From: Gallionellales bacterium RIFCSPLOWO2_02_FULL_59_110
GTDB taxonomy: Bacteria; Pseudomonadota; Gammaproteobacteria; Burkholderiales; Gallionellaceae
DNA: 64,000 nt
Assembly (NCBI GenBank): GCA_001801215.1
Contig: MGXA01000059.1
Location: forward strand, 1 to 64,000
Direction of reading: 5' to 3'
Shown: piece after piece, positions 40,263-50,977 of the stretch
Layout: each line of letters begins with the position of its first letter
How positions within the stretch are numbered: the first letter of the stretch is position 1
Program-made: the position numbers and the translations under genes
Notes under the pieces: generated by a model
The model's input: only the letters and a program-made list of their open reading frames with translations
Database searches by the model: none
What the model was told of the DNA's origin: nothing

Positions 40263-41648
40263 TCATCGCGTTGCTTCGCTGTCATCGGCGCAGTCGCATG
40301 CTTCCACCTCGTTTCTGATGCCTAGCTTTTTTATTTTTTCCCACAGGTTTTTTCGGCTAATGCCTAATTCGGCAGCGGTTTTATTCATCTGCCACTGATG
40401 TTCATTGAGCATATTCAGAATATGCAGCCTCTCGCAGGCATGCAGATAATTTGCCAGTTTGGCTGTACTCTCTGTGGCTATGCTTGCTTCATTTTGAGGG
40501 GCACAATCGAACAGGTCGCCAGTCATGAGCGTAGTTCTTGCTGTCAGGATACATGCGCGTTCGATGTGATGCTTTAATTCGCGAATGTTGCCTGGCCAGC
40601 CATACGCAAGTAGCGCTGCTTCTGCCGATGGGTGTATGGATTTTTGCTCCTCATCGTGTTGTTCTGCAAATTGCTTGAGAAACATCCCGGCAAACCACAA
40701 AATATCTTCCTTGCGCTCGTTCAACGGCGGGATCTTGAGGTGTATCACGTTGATCCGATAAAACAAATCTTCGCGGAAGGCGCCCTGCTCCGCCATTTTT
40801 TTCAGATCGCGATGCGTCGCGCAAATCAGGCGCAAATTGACCGGAATGGAGGTTTCGCCACCAACACGTACGATGCAGCGCTCCTGAATCGCTCGCAGCA
40901 GCTTGACCTGCATCGATAATGGCATATCGCCGATTTCATCCAGAAACAATGAGCCGCCGTTTGCCTGCTCAAAAAAGCCTTTCTTGGTGCGCGTGGCGCC
41001 GGTAAAAGCTCCCTTTTCATAGCCGAACAATTCAGCTTCCAGCAAACTTTCGGTAATCGCGCCGCAATTGACGGCGACGAAAGGTCTGCCGTCATGCCCC
41101 GGGGAACTGCAATGCAGCTCCTTTGCGACGACCTCCTTGCCGACGCCGGATTCTCCGGTAATTAATATGGTGTTCGCATGGCTGGAAAGGCGCGGCAGCG
41201 CATCCGCGATGCGCCGCATCTCCGCAGAAATGCCCAACACGCTCGAACGCTGGGAAATTTGATTTGCCTGCGCCGATTTCGATAGCGAACGGATTTTTTC
41301 CAGCAGCAGATCGAGATCGAACGGCTTGGTGATATAGTCTTCGGCGCCCTGTTTGAGCAGCTCGACAGCGGTATCGATCGAGCCGTATCCGGTGATGAAA
41401 ATAAAGGGCGGCAGCGGCAAACCCGTCAGTTTCAGTTGTGCAAACAGCTCCATGCCGGAAGCATCGCCCAGGCGAATATCGCTGATGGCGACGGCATATT
41501 TTTTCTTCCCTATGCTGGCCAGGGCGCTGGCGGCCGTTTGGTGCCAGTCGCAGGCAAAACCCTCCAACTCAAAGCGGTCGCACAGCGACTCGCCCATGAT
41601 CGGGTCGTCTTCAACCAGACACAGGCGTAGGGCGGTTGTCGCACTCAT
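40263..41648 (-). CDS. Sigma-54-dependent response regulator (NtrC/AioR/ArxR-like)
   Basis: REC ([31 protein letters not shown]); AAA+ GESGVGKE and GAFTGA; C-terminal Fis-type HTH. Confidence 0.93.
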
Positions 41649-43090
41649 GCGTGCATCTCCACAGGCAAGGTTACGGAAAACTGGGTTTCCCCCGGCTGGC
41701 TTTGCATGGTTATCATCCCGTTCAATTGCGATACGATTTGATAGGTCATCCATAGCCCCAAGCCATAGCCCTCTTCACGTCCTGTGGCAAAAGGCTCGAA
41801 CAGGTAATCCATCTGTTCCTGCCCGATGTGCTTGCCGTCATTTTTAACGCCGATGATCAGGCTGCCGCAATCGTAGCAAATATGACAATGCACATAATTC
41901 TCGCTTGCCTGAATGGCATTCAGCAGCAGGTTTATAAGCACTTGGCGCACCATGGTCGAGGGCAGCGGCAAAGTTTCCACGATGTCGTTTTCCCAAACGA
42001 GTTCTGCCGATTTATCGTACGCATTCGCCAGCACCAGGGTGCGTGTGTCTTCAATATCCTGCACGGTGAGGGGATGACTCTGAAGTTTGGCTTCCACCAG
42101 CAATGCGCCGATAATGTTCTTGATTTGCAGCAGGCCCCGCTCCAGCAGAGATATGGTTTTCTGCATTTGCGGATCCATGCTGCCATGCCTTTTAGCGGTG
42201 TTGATGGCATTGAGCATTCCGCCCAGCGGATTGTTGATTTCATGCGCTATGCCTGCGGTCAACCGCCCTACTGCGGCCAGGCGTTCGGAAATGAGAACCT
42301 GTTTTTCCAGGCTCTCCTTGTGTTTCAAGTCGCACAACATGCGCTTGAACGCGCCGCTCATGCGGCCGATTTCGTCGCTGGATTCATATAAGCGAAACTC
42401 CTCCGGCTCGGGCAATGATGAGCCCGCACCCACTTTCGCCATGCTGCTGGAAAGCTGGGTAAGCGGCAACGCCATGCGCCATGCCCAGAACCAGGACAGC
42501 GGCAGCAATATTGCCGCCACGATCAGCGTGGTATAAACGGAGCGCCAGGCGATGTCGTAAAAGTGCGGCAGGAACGTCGAACTGGAATAGCCCATCACGA
42601 GCGTGCCCAAAAACACTTCATCGGAAACGATCGGGGTCACCATATAGGATTTGCCGGATTGCACGATTTCCACCGCTCTGGGGGCGCCCTCGCGGTGTTT
42701 GGATATGACCGAATTCAATTGGGACAAGCGGGGATAGATGCGCGCAAATGCCGCAAGGGCGGGATGCTGTTTCGGATGCGAGGAAACATAAACCTGCTGT
42801 TGCGCATCCAGGATCAGGATTTCATCGATGACGTAACCGCTCTTTTCGCCGGACGATTGCAGGGGCGAGGCGATGGCTTCATACGCGCGCCACACATCGT
42901 CCCGCAGCAACAGCGGCTTGAGCGAATGGGTCAGAATCCGGCTCACTCGCTCGGCGTTCTGCTGCGCATCATATTTCAGATCGTGATAAATTCCGTACAT
43001 CAGCGAGCCGGAAACCGCAATGGCGGTAATGGCGATCAGCAGGCTGGTGCGGAGGGGGATTTTATAGCGTAAACTGAGGTTGCGAAACAT
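41645..43090 (-). CDS. Membrane sensor histidine kinase (AioS/ArxS-like)
   Basis: Two TM segments and periplasmic loop, HAMP, HisKA AGIAHEINNPLGGML, HATPase; 4-bp overlap with the regulator gene. Confidence 0.9.
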   Translation of the reverse strand: MFRNLSLRYKIPLRTSLLIAITAIAVSGSLMYGIYHDLKYDAQQNAERVSRILTHSLKPLLLRDDVWRAYEAIASPLQSSGEKSGYVIDEILILDAQQQVYVSSHPKQHPALAAFARIYPRLSQLNSVISKHREGAPRAVEIVQSGKSYMVTPIVSDEVFLGTLVMGYSSSTFLPHFYDIAWRSVYTTLIVAAILLPLSWFWAWRMALPLTQLSSSMAKVGAGSSLPEPEEFRLYESSDEIGRMSGAFKRMLCDLKHKESLEKQVLISERLAAVGRLTAGIAHEINNPLGGMLNAINTAKRHGSMDPQMQKTISLLERGLLQIKNIIGALLVEAKLQSHPLTVQDIEDTRTLVLANAYDKSAELVWENDIVETLPLPSTMVRQVLINLLLNAIQASENYVHCHICYDCGSLIIGVKNDGKHIGQEQMDYLFEPFATGREEGYGLGLWMTYQIVSQLNGMITMQSQPGETQFSVTLPVEMHA

Positions 43091-43091
43091 G

Positions 43092-43937
43092 CTAGTCGCC
43101 CAGCTTGCGGACCATATAGGCGACGCTGTCGAACATTTTGTCGTTGCCGGGGACGAAGCCATCCAGATTCAGCAGCGCCAGCAGTTTCCTGCCTTCTTCT
43201 TCGTTCTGCATGGCCAGCAGGGCGCTGCGCAAGGCATCCGCATCCGCCTTGGCCAAGCCTTTGCGCACCACGAATGGCGGAAAACCAAAATCCTGGGACT
43301 TCCAGACGATGCGCGTCTGCGCTGTCAGCTCAGGCCGCAATAGCACCAGGGAATCCCAGATGTAGCCGTCTACCGCACCGCCATGCGCCAATTCGGAAGC
43401 CACCGCCTCAACGACTTTGCTGTGGGACCAGGTAAAGAAAGCCTTGCCGAAAAAGGAGTTGGGCTGCTGTTTCAGAAGGCTGAGTTGATACAAAGGAACC
43501 AGATAGCCGGAGTTGGAATCGGGGTCGGAAAAGGCGAACAGCTTGCCTTTCAAATCGGCAATCGAACTGGTTTTCCGGTCTGCTGCCGGAACGATCAGAT
43601 AAGACTGGTAAACGGGTTCACCTTTATAGACGGGCACCGCCAGAAGCCGCAGATCCTTGGTGTTGGTGATGTAAGGGTAGCTGCACAACCATGCCGAATC
43701 GAGCTTGCCGTTTTGCAGCAAGGTCACGATTTCCCGGTAGTTGGCACGTTGTACGAACGATACGGGACGCTTCAGTCGGTTTTGCAGATAGTGCTGCCAT
43801 GCATGAACAAATGCCGTCTGATCCTCCAGTAACACTGCGGACAAACCTATGCGCAGCGGGGCGGGTTCGGCGGCCAGAAGATTGGCCGGGCCGCACAGGG
43901 CCCAGCATAGTAGCGCCAGTTTTATCCAATGTTGCAT
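43092..43937 (-). CDS. PhnD-type periplasmic oxyanion-binding protein (AioX/ArxX-like)
   Basis: Signal peptide; LRIGLSAVLLEDQTAFVHAWQHYLQNRLKRPVSFVQRANYREIVTLLQNGKLDSAWLCSYPYI; adjacent to HK and RR genes. Confidence 0.85.
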   Translation of the reverse strand: MQHWIKLALLCWALCGPANLLAAEPAPLRIGLSAVLLEDQTAFVHAWQHYLQNRLKRPVSFVQRANYREIVTLLQNGKLDSAWLCSYPYITNTKDLRLLAVPVYKGEPVYQSYLIVPAADRKTSSIADLKGKLFAFSDPDSNSGYLVPLYQLSLLKQQPNSFFGKAFFTWSHSKVVEAVASELAHGGAVDGYIWDSLVLLRPELTAQTRIVWKSQDFGFPPFVVRKGLAKADADALRSALLAMQNEEEGRKLLALLNLDGFVPGNDKMFDSVAYMVRKLGD

Positions 43938-44031
43938 TTGAGTTCCACGAATGATAATGATAACCAAGCGATTCAGTATAGCCGAGATTGTTTACCGTTG
44001 TGGCCGCGAATCCAAGGTGGGCAAAGGACTG

Positions 44032-44045
44032 TTACAGTTCTGTAA
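44032..44045. promoter_or_regulatory. Palindrome upstream of the ferredoxin/oxidoreductase operon
   Basis: TTACAG-TT-CTGTAA in the arxX-arxB' intergenic region. Confidence 0.35.
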
Positions 44046-44073
44046 TGTCTTTTTTGCAGCCGAGGAACAAATC

Positions 44074-44089
44074 GTTACCGGGCGGTAAC
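44074..44089. promoter_or_regulatory. Candidate enhancer (UAS) for the sigma-54 activator
   Basis: GTTACCG-GG-CGGTAAC, about 145 bp upstream of the candidate -24/-12 promoter at 44228. Confidence 0.45.
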
Positions 44090-44227
44090 TTGATATGAAA
44101 TGTTACTTTGCACATACAGGTTTTGCGTCCGGCCACATAATGTTGCTTGGATCAGTCATGTTTTCGAATAGTTTCAACTGTGCCAAAATTTGGCGAAAAC
44201 ACAGCCTGTTCGTGATTATATTCATGC

Positions 44228-44242
44228 TGGCGCGTTTTGTGC
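44228..44242 (+). promoter_or_regulatory. Candidate sigma-54 promoter for the ferredoxin gene
   Basis: TGGCGCGTTTTGTGC: GG-N10-GC, near TGGCACG-N4-TTGC. Confidence 0.5.
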
Positions 44243-44275
44243 GAGAGGGCTTAAGCAATCATCGTCTGTTCTGCC

Positions 44276-45466
44276 ATGCCTGACCAGGAAATACAATACA
44301 AGAAGCTGCGCGAGGAGCGTCCTTTGGGCTTGCGCGAGGATGCGTGCCTCGTGCTGCGCGCTCCCCGCTATGCTACATGCCGTGCCTGCGAGACCGCATG
44401 CCCTGTGCAAGCTATCAAGGTGGGAGAGATCACGTTCGAACTGGGCGACGCCTGCATCGACTGCGGGCGTTGCGCCGCCGCCTGCCCGATGGGGGCGCTG
44501 GGCCTTCCCGGTTTCGTGGTACCGGAGGTCAAGCCAGTTCAGGGCGAGCTGTCCTCCGCTAAACCCGTCCCGGTAGAGTGCTGGAAAGTGCCCGCAGAGT
44601 CGTCTTTGCCTGATGCGGTGCGCGTCCCATGCACAGGGGGGTTGAGCACAGGTCGCTTGGTGGAGTTGGCAGCCGCTGCCGGGGATCGCCCGGTGCAGAT
44701 ATGGGATCGGGGCTGGTGCGCCGCGTGCCGCGCCGGGGGTGGCCCGGAGCACCCGGTTAGCGGGGCACTGGAAGCGGCCCGGGGCCTGTTGGCTGGAGCA
44801 GGCGTGCGCCCCGAAAAGTTGCCCGGAATAGCGTTCATGCCTCTGCCCGCGCAACTCATGCCCGCCGAGATTCCCTCTTCCACGAGCCAGCAGACTTTAA
44901 GCCGCCGTGGGTTTTTTTCGGCGTTCATGCGGGAGACGACGGCAGCCATCGACCAGGTGCGGCCGCTGGCACCCAAAAGCGAAATCCGGCGTAAACGAGG
45001 TTTCGAGCGCACCCCCATGCCTTCCCGTGAACGTGAGCGCCTACTCCTCGGGTTGAGTATTCTTGGCAAAAGCACGGACAAGCCTCCCCCCAGTGAGGCA
45101 TTCTACCGGGTGCAGATCAGCCAGGCCTGCCGCAGCCACAACATATGCGTCGGCATTTGCCCAACGGGCGCCTTGGATATTTATGAGGAAGATGCCCAAA
45201 ACGGGGTGGTTTTCGATTCTTACCTGTGTATCGGCTGCGGTCAATGCGTAACAGTTTGCCCTGAAAGCGCCATCGAGTTATCACCAAACGGTAACGACCT
45301 GATGACAATCGGGCAGCTTCGGCTGACCCGCTTCGGCGTGCAGGATTGCCCGGTGTGCGGCCAGACCTTTACCGCGCAAGGTGGCTCAGACTGCTGCCCC
45401 CAGTGCGCCAAGCGCCGCCAACTGGCCAGTTCGGCGTTTGCCAGCCTGTTCGGAAACAACCGCTGA
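44276..45466 (+). CDS. Multi-[4Fe-4S] ferredoxin-like protein (ArxB'-like)
   Basis: CRACETACPVQAI, CIDCGRCAAACPMGAL, internal SRRGFFSAF, CRSHNICVGICPTGAL, CIGCGQCVTVCPESAI, CPVCGQTF...CCPQC. Confidence 0.85.
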   Translation: MPDQEIQYKKLREERPLGLREDACLVLRAPRYATCRACETACPVQAIKVGEITFELGDACIDCGRCAAACPMGALGLPGFVVPEVKPVQGELSSAKPVPVECWKVPAESSLPDAVRVPCTGGLSTGRLVELAAAAGDRPVQIWDRGWCAACRAGGGPEHPVSGALEAARGLLAGAGVRPEKLPGIAFMPLPAQLMPAEIPSSTSQQTLSRRGFFSAFMRETTAAIDQVRPLAPKSEIRRKRGFERTPMPSRERERLLLGLSILGKSTDKPPPSEAFYRVQISQACRSHNICVGICPTGALDIYEEDAQNGVVFDSYLCIGCGQCVTVCPESAIELSPNGNDLMTIGQLRLTRFGVQDCPVCGQTFTAQGGSDCCPQCAKRRQLASSAFASLFGNNR

Positions 45467-45475
45467 AGAGTTATC

Positions 45476-45490
45476 TGGCACACTCCTTGC
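45476..45490 (+). promoter_or_regulatory. Sigma-54 -24/-12 promoter of the molybdoenzyme operon
   Basis: TGGCACACTCCTTGC matches TGGCACG-N4-TTGC with correct GG-N10-GC spacing. Confidence 0.8.
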
Positions 45491-45572
45491 GTAATTAACC
45501 TCTGCCCTAGTCGCAACGATCCGATTTAGATCGGAAGACTGGGTATTACTTTAAACCAAGGAGGATTACTGA

Positions 45573-48071
45573 ATGAACATCCTGAATACCCTGATTACCC
45601 GACGCCGTTTCCTGCAGGCCGCCGGGGCAACCAGCGCCGGGGCAGTGGCTCTGGGCAGCGGCAAGATCGGCGGCTTTGCCACCCTGTCTGAAGCCCAGGC
45701 AGCGGCGCCCGAGGCATCTGGCGGCGCAACGGTGACCAAGAGCATTTGCGGTCAATGTCCGGCTCGTTGCGGCATTGACATCTACAACACCAATGGCCGC
45801 GTCCACGCAATTTACGGCAACAACGACCACCCGATCGCCAATGGCAAGGGTTGCCCCAAGATGCACCTCGGCACCTACATGCTCTACGATCCGGATCGTT
45901 TCAAGGGCCCGATGAAGCGCACCAACCCCAACAAGGGGCGCAACGAGGATCCCAAGTTTGTGCCCATTTCCTGGGACGAAGCCTACAAGACGGTGGCCGA
46001 TCGCCTGAATAACCTGCGCGACAAGGGCGAATCGCACAAGTTCGGTTTGTTCTTCGGCCGCGGCTGGGGCGCTACTGACGTGGGTCTCACCATCGTGCCG
46101 TTCGGCGAACTGTACGGTTCCCCCAATGCGCCTATCGGTCACTCCTCCATCTGTTCCGATGGTTCCGTGCTGGCCAAGCAGTGCACCGACGGCAATGCTT
46201 CCTATTCCTCCTACGACTATCGTCATTCCAACTACCTGCTGATATTCGGCGCGAACTTCCTGGAAGCCTTCCGCCCCTACAACAATAACCTGCAGGTTTG
46301 GGGTTACATCCGTGGCGTGAAGACCCCCAAGACCCGCGTGACTTACGTGGATGTGCACATGAACCAGACCGCAGCAGCAGCCGACCGCGCGCTTCTCGTC
46401 AAGCCCGGCACCGACGGCGCTCTGGCGCTGGCCATCGCGCATGTAATTCTCACCGAGGGCCTGTGGGAAAAGAGCTTCGTTGGCGACTTCAAGGACGGTG
46501 CCAACCTGTTCAAGACCGGCCAGACGCTCGACCCGGCCAGCTTCAACGAAAAATGGGTCAAGGGCCTGATCGAGTGGTGGAACGCGGAACTCAAGGATCG
46601 CACCCCGAAATGGGCCGCAGGAGTGACCACCATTGCCGAGGATCTAATCACCCAGACGGCGCGCGAGTTTGGCTCCACACGCCCGGCGATCGCCCTGTTC
46701 GAGCGCGGCGCTCACGTGCACAGCAACGGCGTGTTGAACGGCATGGCGATCCACTCGCTGAATGCGCTGGTCGGCTCCCTGTTCGCCGAAGGCGGCCTGG
46801 GTTACCAGATGGGGCCTTCCTATGGTCCGTCGCCTGCCAATGCCGCCGACTACATGGACGACTACGCCAAGAACGGCCCGCACAAGAAAATGCCGCGCAT
46901 CGACCTGAAAGGGCACGAAGACGGCTATCTGATGGCCAAAAACATGATCCAGGAAGTGGGCAAAAACCACCTGTCCGGCAAGGCCGGCTACAAGCTCGAT
47001 ACGGCATTGTTCTACATGACCAACCCGGTCTTCTCGACCCCCAATGCGAAAAACGAGTGGGAAGAAGCCGTGAAGACGATGTTTGTCATCGATACTTCGC
47101 CGTTCCCGAGCGAAGTCGCCATGATGGCCGACATCATCCTGCCGGACAACACCTACATCGAACGCTATCAGGATGCGCCAACCTATCCGTTCCAGGGCTT
47201 CCCTCTGGCCCAGCTGCGCGTACCGGCGATCAAACCCCTGTACGATACCCGAACCTTTGGCGATTCGTTGATCGCGATCGGCAGCCTCATCAAGGGACCG
47301 ACGAGCGAGTATTTCAAGAAGCTGGAAAGCGCCGAGAATATCGTGCGCCACCTGGCCAAGGGCTTCGAAAAAGACCCGGGCGACAACGGCGTCAAGGATT
47401 TCGAGACCTGGAAGGCCAAGGGCTGCTGGTTCAAGAAACCGTACGTCTACCGCCAGGTGCGCGGCGAGTTCCTGAAGTGGGACGGCAAGGGCTACAACAA
47501 TCCGATGAGCGCCGAAGACGTCAAGAAGGATCTGCTCATGACAGATTCGGGCAAGTTCGAGTTTGTGTCTTCCTACATGGAGCACAAGAAGGACTGGGTA
47601 CTCGCCAAGACCGGTCGCGATCCCGTCAAGTACAACATGCCGCACTGGGAAGAGCCCAAGTACACCGGCGGGGGCGACGTGCACTTCATCTCCCCGAAGA
47701 CCGCGATGCATGCGGAAGGGCGCGGCGGCAACATCCCGCACGCCATTACCCTGCTCCAGCCTGCTGCCGGCGGCAACAAGGGCGCTCTGGCGGAAATTCA
47801 TCCGAGTTTGGCCAGCGCCAAGGGCATCAAGGATGGCGGCCGCATCAAGATCAAGTCTGCCGTGGGCGAAATCATCGCAACCGCGCGCGTCACCGAGCTG
47901 ACCCGTCCTGACACCATCGTGCTGCCGTTCGAGCATGGTCACTGGGCATGGGGCCGCTGGGCCAAGGCGCTGGGCGGTTCGCACGTGGACGAAATCGTGC
48001 CGCAACAGTCGGATCGCATTTCCGGTATGTGCAACTACTACACCGGCAAGGTGACGGTAGAGCGCGCATAA
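45573..48071 (+). CDS. arxA: Tat-exported molybdopterin oxidoreductase, candidate anaerobic arsenite oxidase catalytic subunit ArxA
   Basis: Tat signal TRRRFLQAAGAT; [4Fe-4S] motif CGQCPARCGIDIY...GKGCPK; FGRGWG (46053-46070); HSSICSDGS Mo-ligand region; operon partners and divergent XSR genes. Confidence 0.75.
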   Translation: MNILNTLITRRRFLQAAGATSAGAVALGSGKIGGFATLSEAQAAAPEASGGATVTKSICGQCPARCGIDIYNTNGRVHAIYGNNDHPIANGKGCPKMHLGTYMLYDPDRFKGPMKRTNPNKGRNEDPKFVPISWDEAYKTVADRLNNLRDKGESHKFGLFFGRGWGATDVGLTIVPFGELYGSPNAPIGHSSICSDGSVLAKQCTDGNASYSSYDYRHSNYLLIFGANFLEAFRPYNNNLQVWGYIRGVKTPKTRVTYVDVHMNQTAAAADRALLVKPGTDGALALAIAHVILTEGLWEKSFVGDFKDGANLFKTGQTLDPASFNEKWVKGLIEWWNAELKDRTPKWAAGVTTIAEDLITQTAREFGSTRPAIALFERGAHVHSNGVLNGMAIHSLNALVGSLFAEGGLGYQMGPSYGPSPANAADYMDDYAKNGPHKKMPRIDLKGHEDGYLMAKNMIQEVGKNHLSGKAGYKLDTALFYMTNPVFSTPNAKNEWEEAVKTMFVIDTSPFPSEVAMMADIILPDNTYIERYQDAPTYPFQGFPLAQLRVPAIKPLYDTRTFGDSLIAIGSLIKGPTSEYFKKLESAENIVRHLAKGFEKDPGDNGVKDFETWKAKGCWFKKPYVYRQVRGEFLKWDGKGYNNPMSAEDVKKDLLMTDSGKFEFVSSYMEHKKDWVLAKTGRDPVKYNMPHWEEPKYTGGGDVHFISPKTAMHAEGRGGNIPHAITLLQPAAGGNKGALAEIHPSLASAKGIKDGGRIKIKSAVGEIIATARVTELTRPDTIVLPFEHGHWAWGRWAKALGGSHVDEIVPQQSDRISGMCNYYTGKVTVERA

Positions 48072-48103: not shown

Positions 48104-48868
48104 ATGGCTAAATGGGGAATGGTAATTGACCTGGAAAAATGCACCGGGTGTCAGGCTTGCAGCACCGCCTGCCAGATGGAGAACAACCGCCTGCCCGGCG
48201 AAAACTACCAGGATGTGTTGTATTACACGGAAGGCAAGCAACCTACGCCGACCCTGAAATGGTTTCCGCGGCCTTGCATGCATTGCGAGGAACCTTCGTG
48301 TTTGCATGTGTGCCCGACCAAGGCCACTTTCAAAACCGCGGATGGGGTGGTGCTCATCGACTGGAACAAGTGTATCGGCTGCAAGTTCTGCATGATCGCC
48401 TGCCCGTACGGTGTGCGTTTCTACACCGACGAGAAGCCGCTCATCGAACCCAATATCAAGGATGTCTTCAAGGGATCGGGCGACCTGTCCTGGAATCCGC
48501 CGTATAAGGGCCCGCAGCAGGACAACGCACACGGCGTCGGCATCCAGCCGAATGGCGTGGTGTCCAAGTGCACCTTCTGCTACCACAAAATCAGCAAGGC
48601 GCCTGCCGGCACTGCCAATCTGACCAACGAGGACGAGGCAACACGCGAGTTCACGCCGGCCTGTGTGCGCACTTGTGCGCCCACAGCCCGCTACTTCGGC
48701 GACCTCGACAACCCCAATTCGGAAGTCAGCCGCATGATTTCGTCGAAGAAGGGCACTCGCCTGCTGGAGCACACGGGCAACAAGCCCCAGGTGTATTACG
48801 TGACTGGTTCCGGCGCGGGCGGCGGGGCAGCGGTGCCCATGGGCCGCAACGGCATCAACAAGGTATAA
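48104..48868 (+). CDS. arxB: [4Fe-4S] electron-transfer subunit (ArxB-like)
   Basis: CTGCQACSTACQ-type cysteine clusters (CTGCQACSTACQMENN, CMHCEEPSCLHVCPTKA, CIGCKFCMIACPYGVR, CTFCYHK). Confidence 0.8.
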   Translation: MAKWGMVIDLEKCTGCQACSTACQMENNRLPGENYQDVLYYTEGKQPTPTLKWFPRPCMHCEEPSCLHVCPTKATFKTADGVVLIDWNKCIGCKFCMIACPYGVRFYTDEKPLIEPNIKDVFKGSGDLSWNPPYKGPQQDNAHGVGIQPNGVVSKCTFCYHKISKAPAGTANLTNEDEATREFTPACVRTCAPTARYFGDLDNPNSEVSRMISSKKGTRLLEHTGNKPQVYYVTGSGAGGGAAVPMGRNGINKV

Positions 48869-48880
48869 GGAGAAAAAACT

Positions 48881-50014
48881 ATGACTACGCAAGTTGAAGC
48901 AAAAGGGCCGGTCGGTATGGCCATGATGGCGGGCGTTGCCGGGCTGGTGATCAGTTTGGGCATTGTCTTCAGTAATCTCATGTCCAGCGGTCATGCCTCC
49001 TTTAACACCGGCAGCAACGGTGTGACCTGGGGGCTGCCCGTGGTGAACTACGTGTTCTTCGTACTCACCTCGACGGGATTGACCTTCGTGGCCTCGCTGG
49101 CCATGGTGTTCGGGTTCAAGGAGTTCTACCCGATCGCCAAGCGCTGTGTCTGGCTGGCGGTGGTGACGCTGATCGCAGGTTTCGCCTCGCTGGCGCTGGA
49201 AATCGGCCACCCGTTCCGCATGCTGTGGGCGATTCCCCTGTCGTTCCAGTATCTGTCGCCGCTTAACTGGATGGGCGTGTTCTACCTGGCCTATCTGGTG
49301 CTGCTGCTGCTCAAATTCCAGAAGGTGAACGCCAACGACTGGGACAGCAGCGGTTCGCGCACTCTGGGCATTGCCTCCTTCGTCGCCGTGGTTATCGCCC
49401 ACGGCACGCTGGGCGGCGTGTTCGGCGCGATGATCATGCGTCCGATGTGGTATGGCCCTCTGGTGCCCATTTACTTCCTCCTCACGGCGGCAGTATCGGG
49501 TGCGGCTTTTGCGGTGCTGATTACCTACCTGACCTACGGCAGCGCCGGCAACATGCCAGAGAAGGTGCGCAATCTCATGGCCGGCTCCATGTCCAAGGTG
49601 TTCGCCGCCGTTCTGGCGGTAGTCATCCTGGCGGTCGTTTCGCGCACTGTGATCGGCCTGTGGACCAACGCCGACGGTATGCAGGTGTGGGATCACGTCG
49701 TGGCTTCGCCCTGGTACTGGATCGAAATCGTTCTGATGGTGGCGGCATTCCTGATGCTGGTTAACGGCAGTTCGCCGATGTTGCCCGCCCTCATGGTGAT
49801 CGTCTCGCTGTTCATCGGGCGCTACGAGTTCATCATTTCCGGCCAGTTGGTTCCGCTGTTCAAGGGCTCCTGGGTGCCGGGGCTGATTCAGTACACACCC
49901 TCGCTCACCGAGTGGATGACGACTCTGGTGGCGTTTTCCATCGCTCTCGCTGGATGGGCGGTAGGCGAGAAAATGCTGAATCTTGCCGCAGCACCAGAGG
50001 GGAAGAATTCGTAA
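48881..50014 (+). CDS. arxC: NrfD/PsrC-family membrane anchor, quinol-interacting (ArxC-like)
   Basis: NrfD-family multi-TM protein following the FeS subunit. Confidence 0.8.
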   Translation: MTTQVEAKGPVGMAMMAGVAGLVISLGIVFSNLMSSGHASFNTGSNGVTWGLPVVNYVFFVLTSTGLTFVASLAMVFGFKEFYPIAKRCVWLAVVTLIAGFASLALEIGHPFRMLWAIPLSFQYLSPLNWMGVFYLAYLVLLLLKFQKVNANDWDSSGSRTLGIASFVAVVIAHGTLGGVFGAMIMRPMWYGPLVPIYFLLTAAVSGAAFAVLITYLTYGSAGNMPEKVRNLMAGSMSKVFAAVLAVVILAVVSRTVIGLWTNADGMQVWDHVVASPWYWIEIVLMVAAFLMLVNGSSPMLPALMVIVSLFIGRYEFIISGQLVPLFKGSWVPGLIQYTPSLTEWMTTLVAFSIALAGWAVGEKMLNLAAAPEGKNS

Positions 50015-50113: not shown

Positions 50114-50977
50114 ATGAATAAGCCTGATTTATCACTGCAAGACAAGTCCGATTTCTACCTGATGCTGGCGCGAGCTTTCATGGCGCCGATGGACCAGAAC
50201 ACTTATCAGGCCATAGTTGAATTTCTGGCCGACGACCTGGCCGAATTGGATGTGGAGCTAGGTTACGGGTTGGGGCCGCACATAGCAGCCCTGCGCGAGC
50301 AGTTGGCAAAAGTCCCCAGCCAGGAAGAATTGTTGATCATTTACAGCAGAATTTTTTTGCAACCTCCCCGCGAGGCCCAGATCAACCCCGGCATGTATCT
50401 GGATGGCGCCCTGATGGGCGGCACGGTTGCCGAAATGGAAGCGTTCTACCGGAAATTCAATGTGATGCGCGGCGAGCATTTCAGGGATTTGCCGGATCAT
50501 GTTGCGATCCAACTGGAATTTGTTGCTTACCTCTATGCGCGCGCCGCCGAGGCTCGCGAAATGGGCAGGCACGATAATGAAGCAGAAGCGGGTGCGGGAC
50601 ATTTCCTGTTTCAGTTCGTAAATCGCTGGATGCCGAAATTCCACGCCGACCTGGAAAAAGTAACCCGCGAACTGGATGAAATCATGCTGCCGGCCAATCC
50701 CTATCTGCCCCTAGCCAGCATCCTGGGGGATGCAGCAGCCCGGGATGCGCTTGCCAATCCGGAATGGCTGCCGGTAAAAAAACGGGTCGATAAGGCCATA
50801 GATAAGGCTAGGGCCGACTATGCCGCGCGCGGTATCACGGAAGAGGATATGGCCGAAATGGAACGCAAGCTCAAGGAAAAGGGTCTCAGCGTCGATCACC
50901 TGAAAATACCGGCCGAGAACCGTGATGCGGTTATGGGCTGGACAGCGAAAACGCCGCCCGATCCACGGCGCAAGTGA
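50114..50977 (+). CDS. arxD: TorD-family molybdoenzyme chaperone (ArxD-like)
   Basis: All-helical TorD-like: SDFYLMLARAFMAPMD, EELLIIYSRIFLQPP, DLPDHVAIQLEFVAYLY, HFLFQFVNRWMPKF. Confidence 0.75.
   Translation: MNKPDLSLQDKSDFYLMLARAFMAPMDQNTYQAIVEFLADDLAELDVELGYGLGPHIAALREQLAKVPSQEELLIIYSRIFLQPPREAQINPGMYLDGALMGGTVAEMEAFYRKFNVMRGEHFRDLPDHVAIQLEFVAYLYARAAEAREMGRHDNEAEAGAGHFLFQFVNRWMPKFHADLEKVTRELDEIMLPANPYLPLASILGDAAARDALANPEWLPVKKRVDKAIDKARADYAARGITEEDMAEMERKLKEKGLSVDHLKIPAENRDAVMGWTAKTPPDPRRK

Follow-up and report, generated by a model that had tools for sequence, protein, structure and literature searches.

How an operon for a predicted anaerobic arsenite oxidase is switched on is the question raised by a region of Gallionellales bacterium RIFCSPLOWO2_02_FULL_59_110 in which two sequences resembling sigma-54 promoters lie downstream of palindromes, one of them within coding sequence. 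The original prediction, made from the window (the whole stretch analysed, 64,000 nucleotides at positions 1 to 64,000 of contig MGXA01000059.1), was that two sigma-54 promoters, one ahead of a ferredoxin gene and one ahead of a molybdoenzyme gene, are paired with palindromic enhancers and controlled by a regulator of the sigma-54 type encoded next door. All four of the sequences that it cited are in place, and the distances that it quoted are correct. Judged from sequence comparison, the most likely explanation is that the palindromes and promoters are real switches through which the regulator ArxR activates the genes for anaerobic arsenite oxidase. We give a probability of roughly 0.8 to the reading of this region as arsenite-responsive control of the arx operon, consisting of an upstream sigma-54 module and a separate promoter for arxA.

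Control by sigma-54 together with AioXSR is established for the arsenite oxidase genes aioBA of aerobic arsenite oxidizers (PMC2848651; PMC6011840; PMC5335332). In H. arsenicoxydans, aio expression requires rpoN, and the transcription start has been mapped (PMC2848651). The AioR motif has been described along with a 16-bp DNase footprint, GTTCGGATTTCCGAAC (PMC5335332), as has an RpoN promoter of aio, TGGCACAACGATTGCA (PMC6011840), and tandem palindromic sites are typical upstream of aioBA promoters (PMC3834237). The AioXSR systems of Rhizobium NT-26, Agrobacterium GW4/5A and Herminiimonas resemble the window in having a PhnD-like sensor, a kinase, an NtrC-type regulator and tandem palindromes. 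The window differs from them in that the target is the unrelated oxidase ArxA, the half-site is GTTACC whereas the alphaproteobacterial half-site is GTTCGG, a second promoter lies within the operon and has an enhancer-like box in coding sequence, and control by ArxR is a prediction. For Alkalilimnicola ehrlichii MLHE-1, homology-based prediction placed an RpoN promoter and a single ArxR site upstream of arxB' (PMC5908839, in the accessible part of that report). The operon is the same as that of the window, and both kinds of element lie in the same intergenic region; however, the MLHE-1 prediction, as given in that accessible part, concerns one locus and a 14-nt site (gtaacaattcaagc), without a tandem palindrome consensus, an internal arxA promoter or an intragenic box. 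The predicted upstream module of the window is the arx counterpart of the known aio control, as already predicted for MLHE-1. The literature consulted describes a role of ArxXSR in arx expression as not demonstrated.

By its predicted gene content, the arx cluster of the window is complete, with arxXSR divergent from arxB2-A-B-C-D. Three genes lie on the minus strand. arxX (43092-43937) encodes a PhnD-like periplasmic binding protein (Pfam PF12974) presumed to be the arsenite sensor; the accessible part of the MLHE-1 report states that ArxX of that strain binds arsenite (PMC5908839). arxS (41645-43090) encodes a HAMP sensor histidine kinase (Pfam HisKA and HATPase_c) and adjoins arxR and arxX in relatives too. 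arxR (40263-41753) encodes an NtrC/AtoC-type response regulator (Pfam PF00072, PF00158 and PF02954), and because its open reading frame overlaps arxS, the true start is probably closer to 41645. On the plus strand are arxB2 (44276-45466), which encodes a ferredoxin-like protein and has the intragenic box in its 3' end, and arxA (45573-48071), which encodes the predicted molybdopterin subunit of the anaerobic arsenite oxidase, with a Tat-type signal. The further cluster genes arxB (48104-48868), arxC (48881-50014) and arxD (50114-50977) follow on the same strand, and the cluster ends with arxD. ArxA proteins are told apart from ArrA proteins by XGRGWG in place of (R/K)GRY (PMC6549141). The window protein carries F-GRGWG, with G162-R-G-W-G166 invariant in the alignment; an ArrA model also matches it, but far under the model cut-off. 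The genome, 2.81 Mb in size and 99.7% complete, encodes RpoN (TIGR02395, 451.5 bits, above the cut-off). A model of the aio small subunit has zero matches across this genome, and an aerobic oxidase as the true target was rejected on this ground. An ArxA match at E 1e-100 is absent from all six genomes sampled from the same genus, and his genes lie near the cluster (52295 onward); these two observations suggest that the cluster was acquired horizontally.

The divergent intergenic region between arxX and arxB2 holds three candidate elements, all given on the plus strand. The proximal ArxR box, GTTACCGGGCGGTAAC (44074-44089), is a perfect GTTACC-N4-GGTAAC. It agrees with the published AioR motif at 15/16 positions and is the sole GTTACCN4GGTAAC with at most one mismatch in the 2.81-Mb genome, on which ground a wider regulon defined by this box was rejected. 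A distal box, GTTACAGTTCTGTAAT (44031-44046), was absent from the original prediction. It precedes the proximal box by exactly 43 bp, or about four helical turns, which is the most frequent tandem spacing among relatives. By the 16-bp dyad GTTNC-N6-GNAAC, the proximal box is exact and the distal box has one mismatch; the distal box is weak by itself, with 27 sites of at most one mismatch in the 64-kb window. The candidate sigma-54 promoter of arxB2, TGGCGCGTTTTGTGC (44228-44242), reads TGGCGCG-N4-GTGC. Promoters were recognized by a -24/-12 element like TGGCACG-N4-TTGC with invariant GG and GC, and against this pattern the arxB2 site is a moderate match and the arxA site discussed below a strong one. 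The arxB2 site scores 12.5 of 20 on a sigma-54 matrix that approximates the published consensus, so that its scores are relative only. TGGCGCGN4GTGC has 17 copies genome-wide, which makes the motif weak by itself; about 0.001 copies are expected in this intergenic region. Two other loci, L113 and L114, have the unusual -12 element (GTGC) at the corresponding position, again as TGGCGCG-N4-GTGC. Within 43850-45600, a search for sigma-70 promoters gave one match, no more than in shuffles. Directly upstream of arxX, at 43945-43966, the sequence GAATGATAATGATAACC resembles a Fur-type repeat (NATAAT units).

A search for the palindrome near related loci, which the original prediction had proposed as a check, supports the upstream promoter. 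The survey covered 93 arx loci, made up of the window, 80 loci from species genomes, 11 from related genomes and one annotated plasmid locus. A GTTACC-N4-GGTAAC box with at most one mismatch is present in 42/48 divergent arxX-arxB2 intergenic regions (mean of 0.0 in shuffles), at least two boxes are present in 27/48 (0.0 in shuffles) and an RpoN-like site in 34/48 (0.8 in shuffles), counts that come from loci that are kin and therefore not independent. Among the 23 loci without arxX, one has a box, none has two or more and two have an RpoN-like site. Tandem boxes are spaced by 43 bp (16 cases) or by 30-34 bp (13 cases), ahead of the -24/-12 site. Distances between the proximal box and the -24 element cluster about every 11 bp (58-59, 70-71, 79-83, 92-95, 102-103 and 111), and in 22 loci with near-duplicates removed this helical phasing exceeds that of every one of 4000 random sets, a result inflated by relatedness. 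The corresponding distance in the window, 154 bp, is the longest among all the loci measured; this distance and the moderate match of the arxB2 promoter count against the proposed module. L103 has tandem boxes upstream of arxB2, with them a strong RpoN site, and no arxX within 2.2 kb upstream; its regulator may be elsewhere in its genome. In the betaproteobacterial loci L068, L077 and L082, for which no arxX was found, GTYGCC-N4-GGCAAC palindromes lie at -15 from the estimated arxB2 start, and these perhaps belong to a different regulator or are due to chance.

The box sequence can also be compared with the protein predicted to read it. ArxR of the window has a receiver domain with the phospho-acceptor Asp, an AAA+ domain and a Fis-type helix-turn-helix with the recognition helix ISRKNLWEK. 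Across about 58 loci, the half-site tracks the helix of the adjacent ArxR or AioR: SRKN, SRKS and SRKT go with GTTACC, TRKT with GTTACG, GRST with GTCCGG, and SRTT and GRTT, found in alphaproteobacterial AioR and ArxR, with GTTCGG. None of 5000 label shuffles gave as strong an association, a figure that overstates its strength because clades are not independent. This covariation bears on whether the palindromes could instead be sites of another regulator, such as a repressor, or terminators or RNA hairpins. Read on the minus strand, the inverted repeat at 44074-44089 does give a weak terminator-like match, but such matches number 3 against a mean of 2.4 in shuffled sequence, which is within noise. 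Moreover, box presence follows arxXSR, box sequence varies with the recognition helix of ArxR, and tandem spacings of 43 and 30-34 bp fit dimers on one face of the DNA, all of which makes these alternatives very improbable.

Evidence for the involvement of sigma-54 comes from the AAA+ domain. In ArxR of the window both the GAFTGA loop and the Walker motifs are found, in agreement with the original description of the regulator as a sigma-54 type. In five Rhodobacterales-type ArxRs (L073, L075, L091, L097 and L110), the GAFTGA loop and the acidic pair of Walker B are lost; no RpoN site was found in these five loci, while their boxes are retained, and in most of them an AT-rich stretch resembling TATAAA lies 21-31 bp from where the proximal box begins. 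L051, whose ArxR has GAFSGA, retains its RpoN site. NtrC of R. capsulatus is known to have lost GAFTGA and moved to sigma-70 (PMC10274813). The Rhodobacterales ArxRs have lost the same loop as the GAFTGA-less NtrC proteins of Rhodobacter capsulatus and Caulobacter, and a switch from sigma-54 to sigma-70 is probable in this group. ArxR of the window keeps the loop and is therefore assigned to the sigma-54 type, unlike those NtrC proteins. That RpoN sites disappear together with GAFTGA argues for the box-plus-RpoN arrangement of the window as a true sigma-54 module. Given the conservation of the box, its match to the AioR footprint and its covariation with the recognition helix, binding by ArxR and sigma-54 control of the predicted upstream module are well supported, and for the upstream promoter the original prediction has strong support.

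These data can be assembled into a scheme in which we infer binding, phosphorylation, transcription starts and induction by arsenite. Periplasmic arsenite would bind ArxX, after which ArxS would phosphorylate ArxR. Dimers of ArxR would occupy both upstream boxes (44031-44046 and 44074-44089), and the AAA+ ring, acting via its GAFTGA loop, would open the sigma-54 RNA polymerase at 44228-44242 for transcription of arxB2 and the operon. For arxA there would be a separate start at the second sigma-54 promoter (45476-45490). Its activator would be ArxR bound to the intragenic box (45280-45295), ArxR looping in from the tandem boxes about 1.4 kb upstream, or both.

The candidate internal promoter, TGGCACACTCCTTGC (45476-45490, plus strand), is a strong, near-consensus TGGCACA-N4-TTGC just past the arxB2 stop codon, 83 bp ahead of arxA. 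TGGCACRN4TTGC has five copies genome-wide, the same number as a control pattern, so that about 1e-4 copies would be expected on one strand of the 106-bp gap between arxB2 and arxA. Equivalent sites lie at -80 to -102 from arxA in seven relatives (L032, L033, L035, L036, L038, L044 and L048), and Sulfuricella-type loci (L027, L117, L118, L120, L122 and L123) have sites at -62 to -89; the two sets are separate clades on the ArxA tree. Most arx loci have no internal promoter. This last observation favors a model in which the upstream module alone works, transcripts reach arxA by read-through from the arxB2 promoter, and the internal site and its box are relics or chance matches. The box within arxB2 of the window is indeed degenerate, with its partner half-site lost, and RpoN binding sites inside genes are described as common in bacteria in the accessible part of a published study (PMC4591121). 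However, read-through alone is unlikely given that the near-consensus site recurs in the seven relatives and separately in the Sulfuricella-type loci, and that a box inside arxB2 always accompanies a strong internal promoter where the adjacent arxB2 is intact: in the 79 loci with an intact arxB2 ahead of arxA, and allowing at most two mismatches, such a box is present in 11/11 loci with a strong internal promoter versus 8/68 without one. In addition, L032 and L033 keep the promoter and the box region even though the arxB2 adjoining arxA is a 3' remnant that starts at about the intragenic box; L032 has its intact arxB2 at a distance of 3.3 kb. We therefore consider the candidate internal promoter of the window probably functional, as the original prediction held.

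The enhancer assigned to this promoter fared less well. The original prediction placed a related palindrome in the ferredoxin coding sequence, and the 19-bp palindrome, GTTATCACCAAACGGTAAC, is present at 45277-45295. A conserved element does lie here, but in another register. The arms of the 19-bp palindrome are 3 bp too far apart for a box in its own right, and a gap-free codon alignment with relatives places the ArxR-box homologue, ATCACCAAACGGTAAC, at 45280-45295 (plus strand); the 19-bp palindrome is rejected on both counts. With 10/12 box positions, the element at 45280-45295 counts as no more than a degenerate homologue. The idea that one codon had been inserted into a perfect box (GTTA[TCA]CCAAACGGTAAC) was abandoned, because ArxB2 aligns gap-free from its last Fe-S Cys to the box, so that the change is one of Leu TTA to Ser TCA. 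TTA CCA of the clade is TCA CCA in the window; the left half thereby lacks T3, and the right half-site is perfect. A second half-site, 33 bp downstream in relatives, is missing in the window after a short deletion.

Intragenic boxes occur at three places relative to arxA: at about -290 (the window type), at -242/-254, and at -932 to -961 as perfect copies. The -290-type element lies at -285 to -300 in its eight loci, with at most three mismatches. Strong evidence that selection has acted on DNA, and not on protein, comes from codon usage in five relatives (L035, L036, L038, L044 and L048). There, TTA occurs only twice among the Leu codons of the matched arx reading frames (about 190 such codons, or 101 in the truncated L044), once in each of the two intragenic half-sites, which are 33 bp apart. 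The window box is not significant alone, with an equally good box in 14% of synonymous-codon shuffles of arxB2.

Enhancers for sigma-54 promoters can work across more than 1 kb, and the upstream boxes could serve the arxA promoter by looping. In one form of this model the arxA promoter is genuine but takes its activation solely from the tandem boxes 1.4 kb upstream, the intragenic box of the window no longer binding ArxR. The absence of T3 from its left half and of the second half-site is consistent with this. Against it, the box has a perfect right half-site and matches at 10/12 positions, as do the boxes of L035, L044 and L048, where TTA usage points to selection. Looping alone is a tentative alternative, more plausible than read-through. 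We retain the reading in which arxA has its own sigma-54 promoter. With 10/12 positions and a lost partner half-site, the activity of the putative intragenic box in the window is uncertain, and we put its chances of being functional at about even. The part of the original prediction that concerned arxA thus gains from the recurrence of the promoter in two separate ArxA clades and loses by the misregistered palindrome.

A broader interpretation, which we favor by a small margin over its negation, is that in at least two arx lineages arxA gained its own sigma-54 promoter together with an ArxR enhancer in the arxB2 coding sequence (at about -290, -245 or -950), so that arsenite would drive the oxidase apart from arxB2; that ArxR and its box would form a readable helix code; and that the Rhodobacterales ArxRs would have left sigma-54 altogether. 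An intragenic enhancer would mean that regulatory sequence constrains codon choice in a bacterial operon, and it would let arxB2 and arxABC be expressed separately. Induction in Thioalkalivibrio jannaschii was seen for arxB2 and not for arxABC (PMC6620896); the internal promoter was not found in the Thioalkalivibrio loci examined. The box consensus, the helix covariation and the natural loss of sigma-54 control in GAFTGA-less ArxRs make the role of ArxXSR precisely testable. In a literature search that covered few subscription papers, no description was found of an internal promoter with an intragenic enhancer, of the recognition-helix code or of the ArxR switch from sigma-54 to sigma-70, and the internal promoter with its putative intragenic enhancer appears to be new.

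Boxes inside arxB2 are also found in other settings. In six Azoarcus/Aromatoleum loci (L039, L040, L041, L042, L043 and L045) there is a perfect or near-perfect box at about -714 from arxA, and such boxes lie at -654 in L086 and at -1142 in L103; no strong internal RpoN promoter was seen in any of these eight loci, and the Azoarcus-type cases count against the reading given here. The Azoarcus/Aromatoleum box may be a downstream element acting on the upstream promoter, or it may be a leftover.
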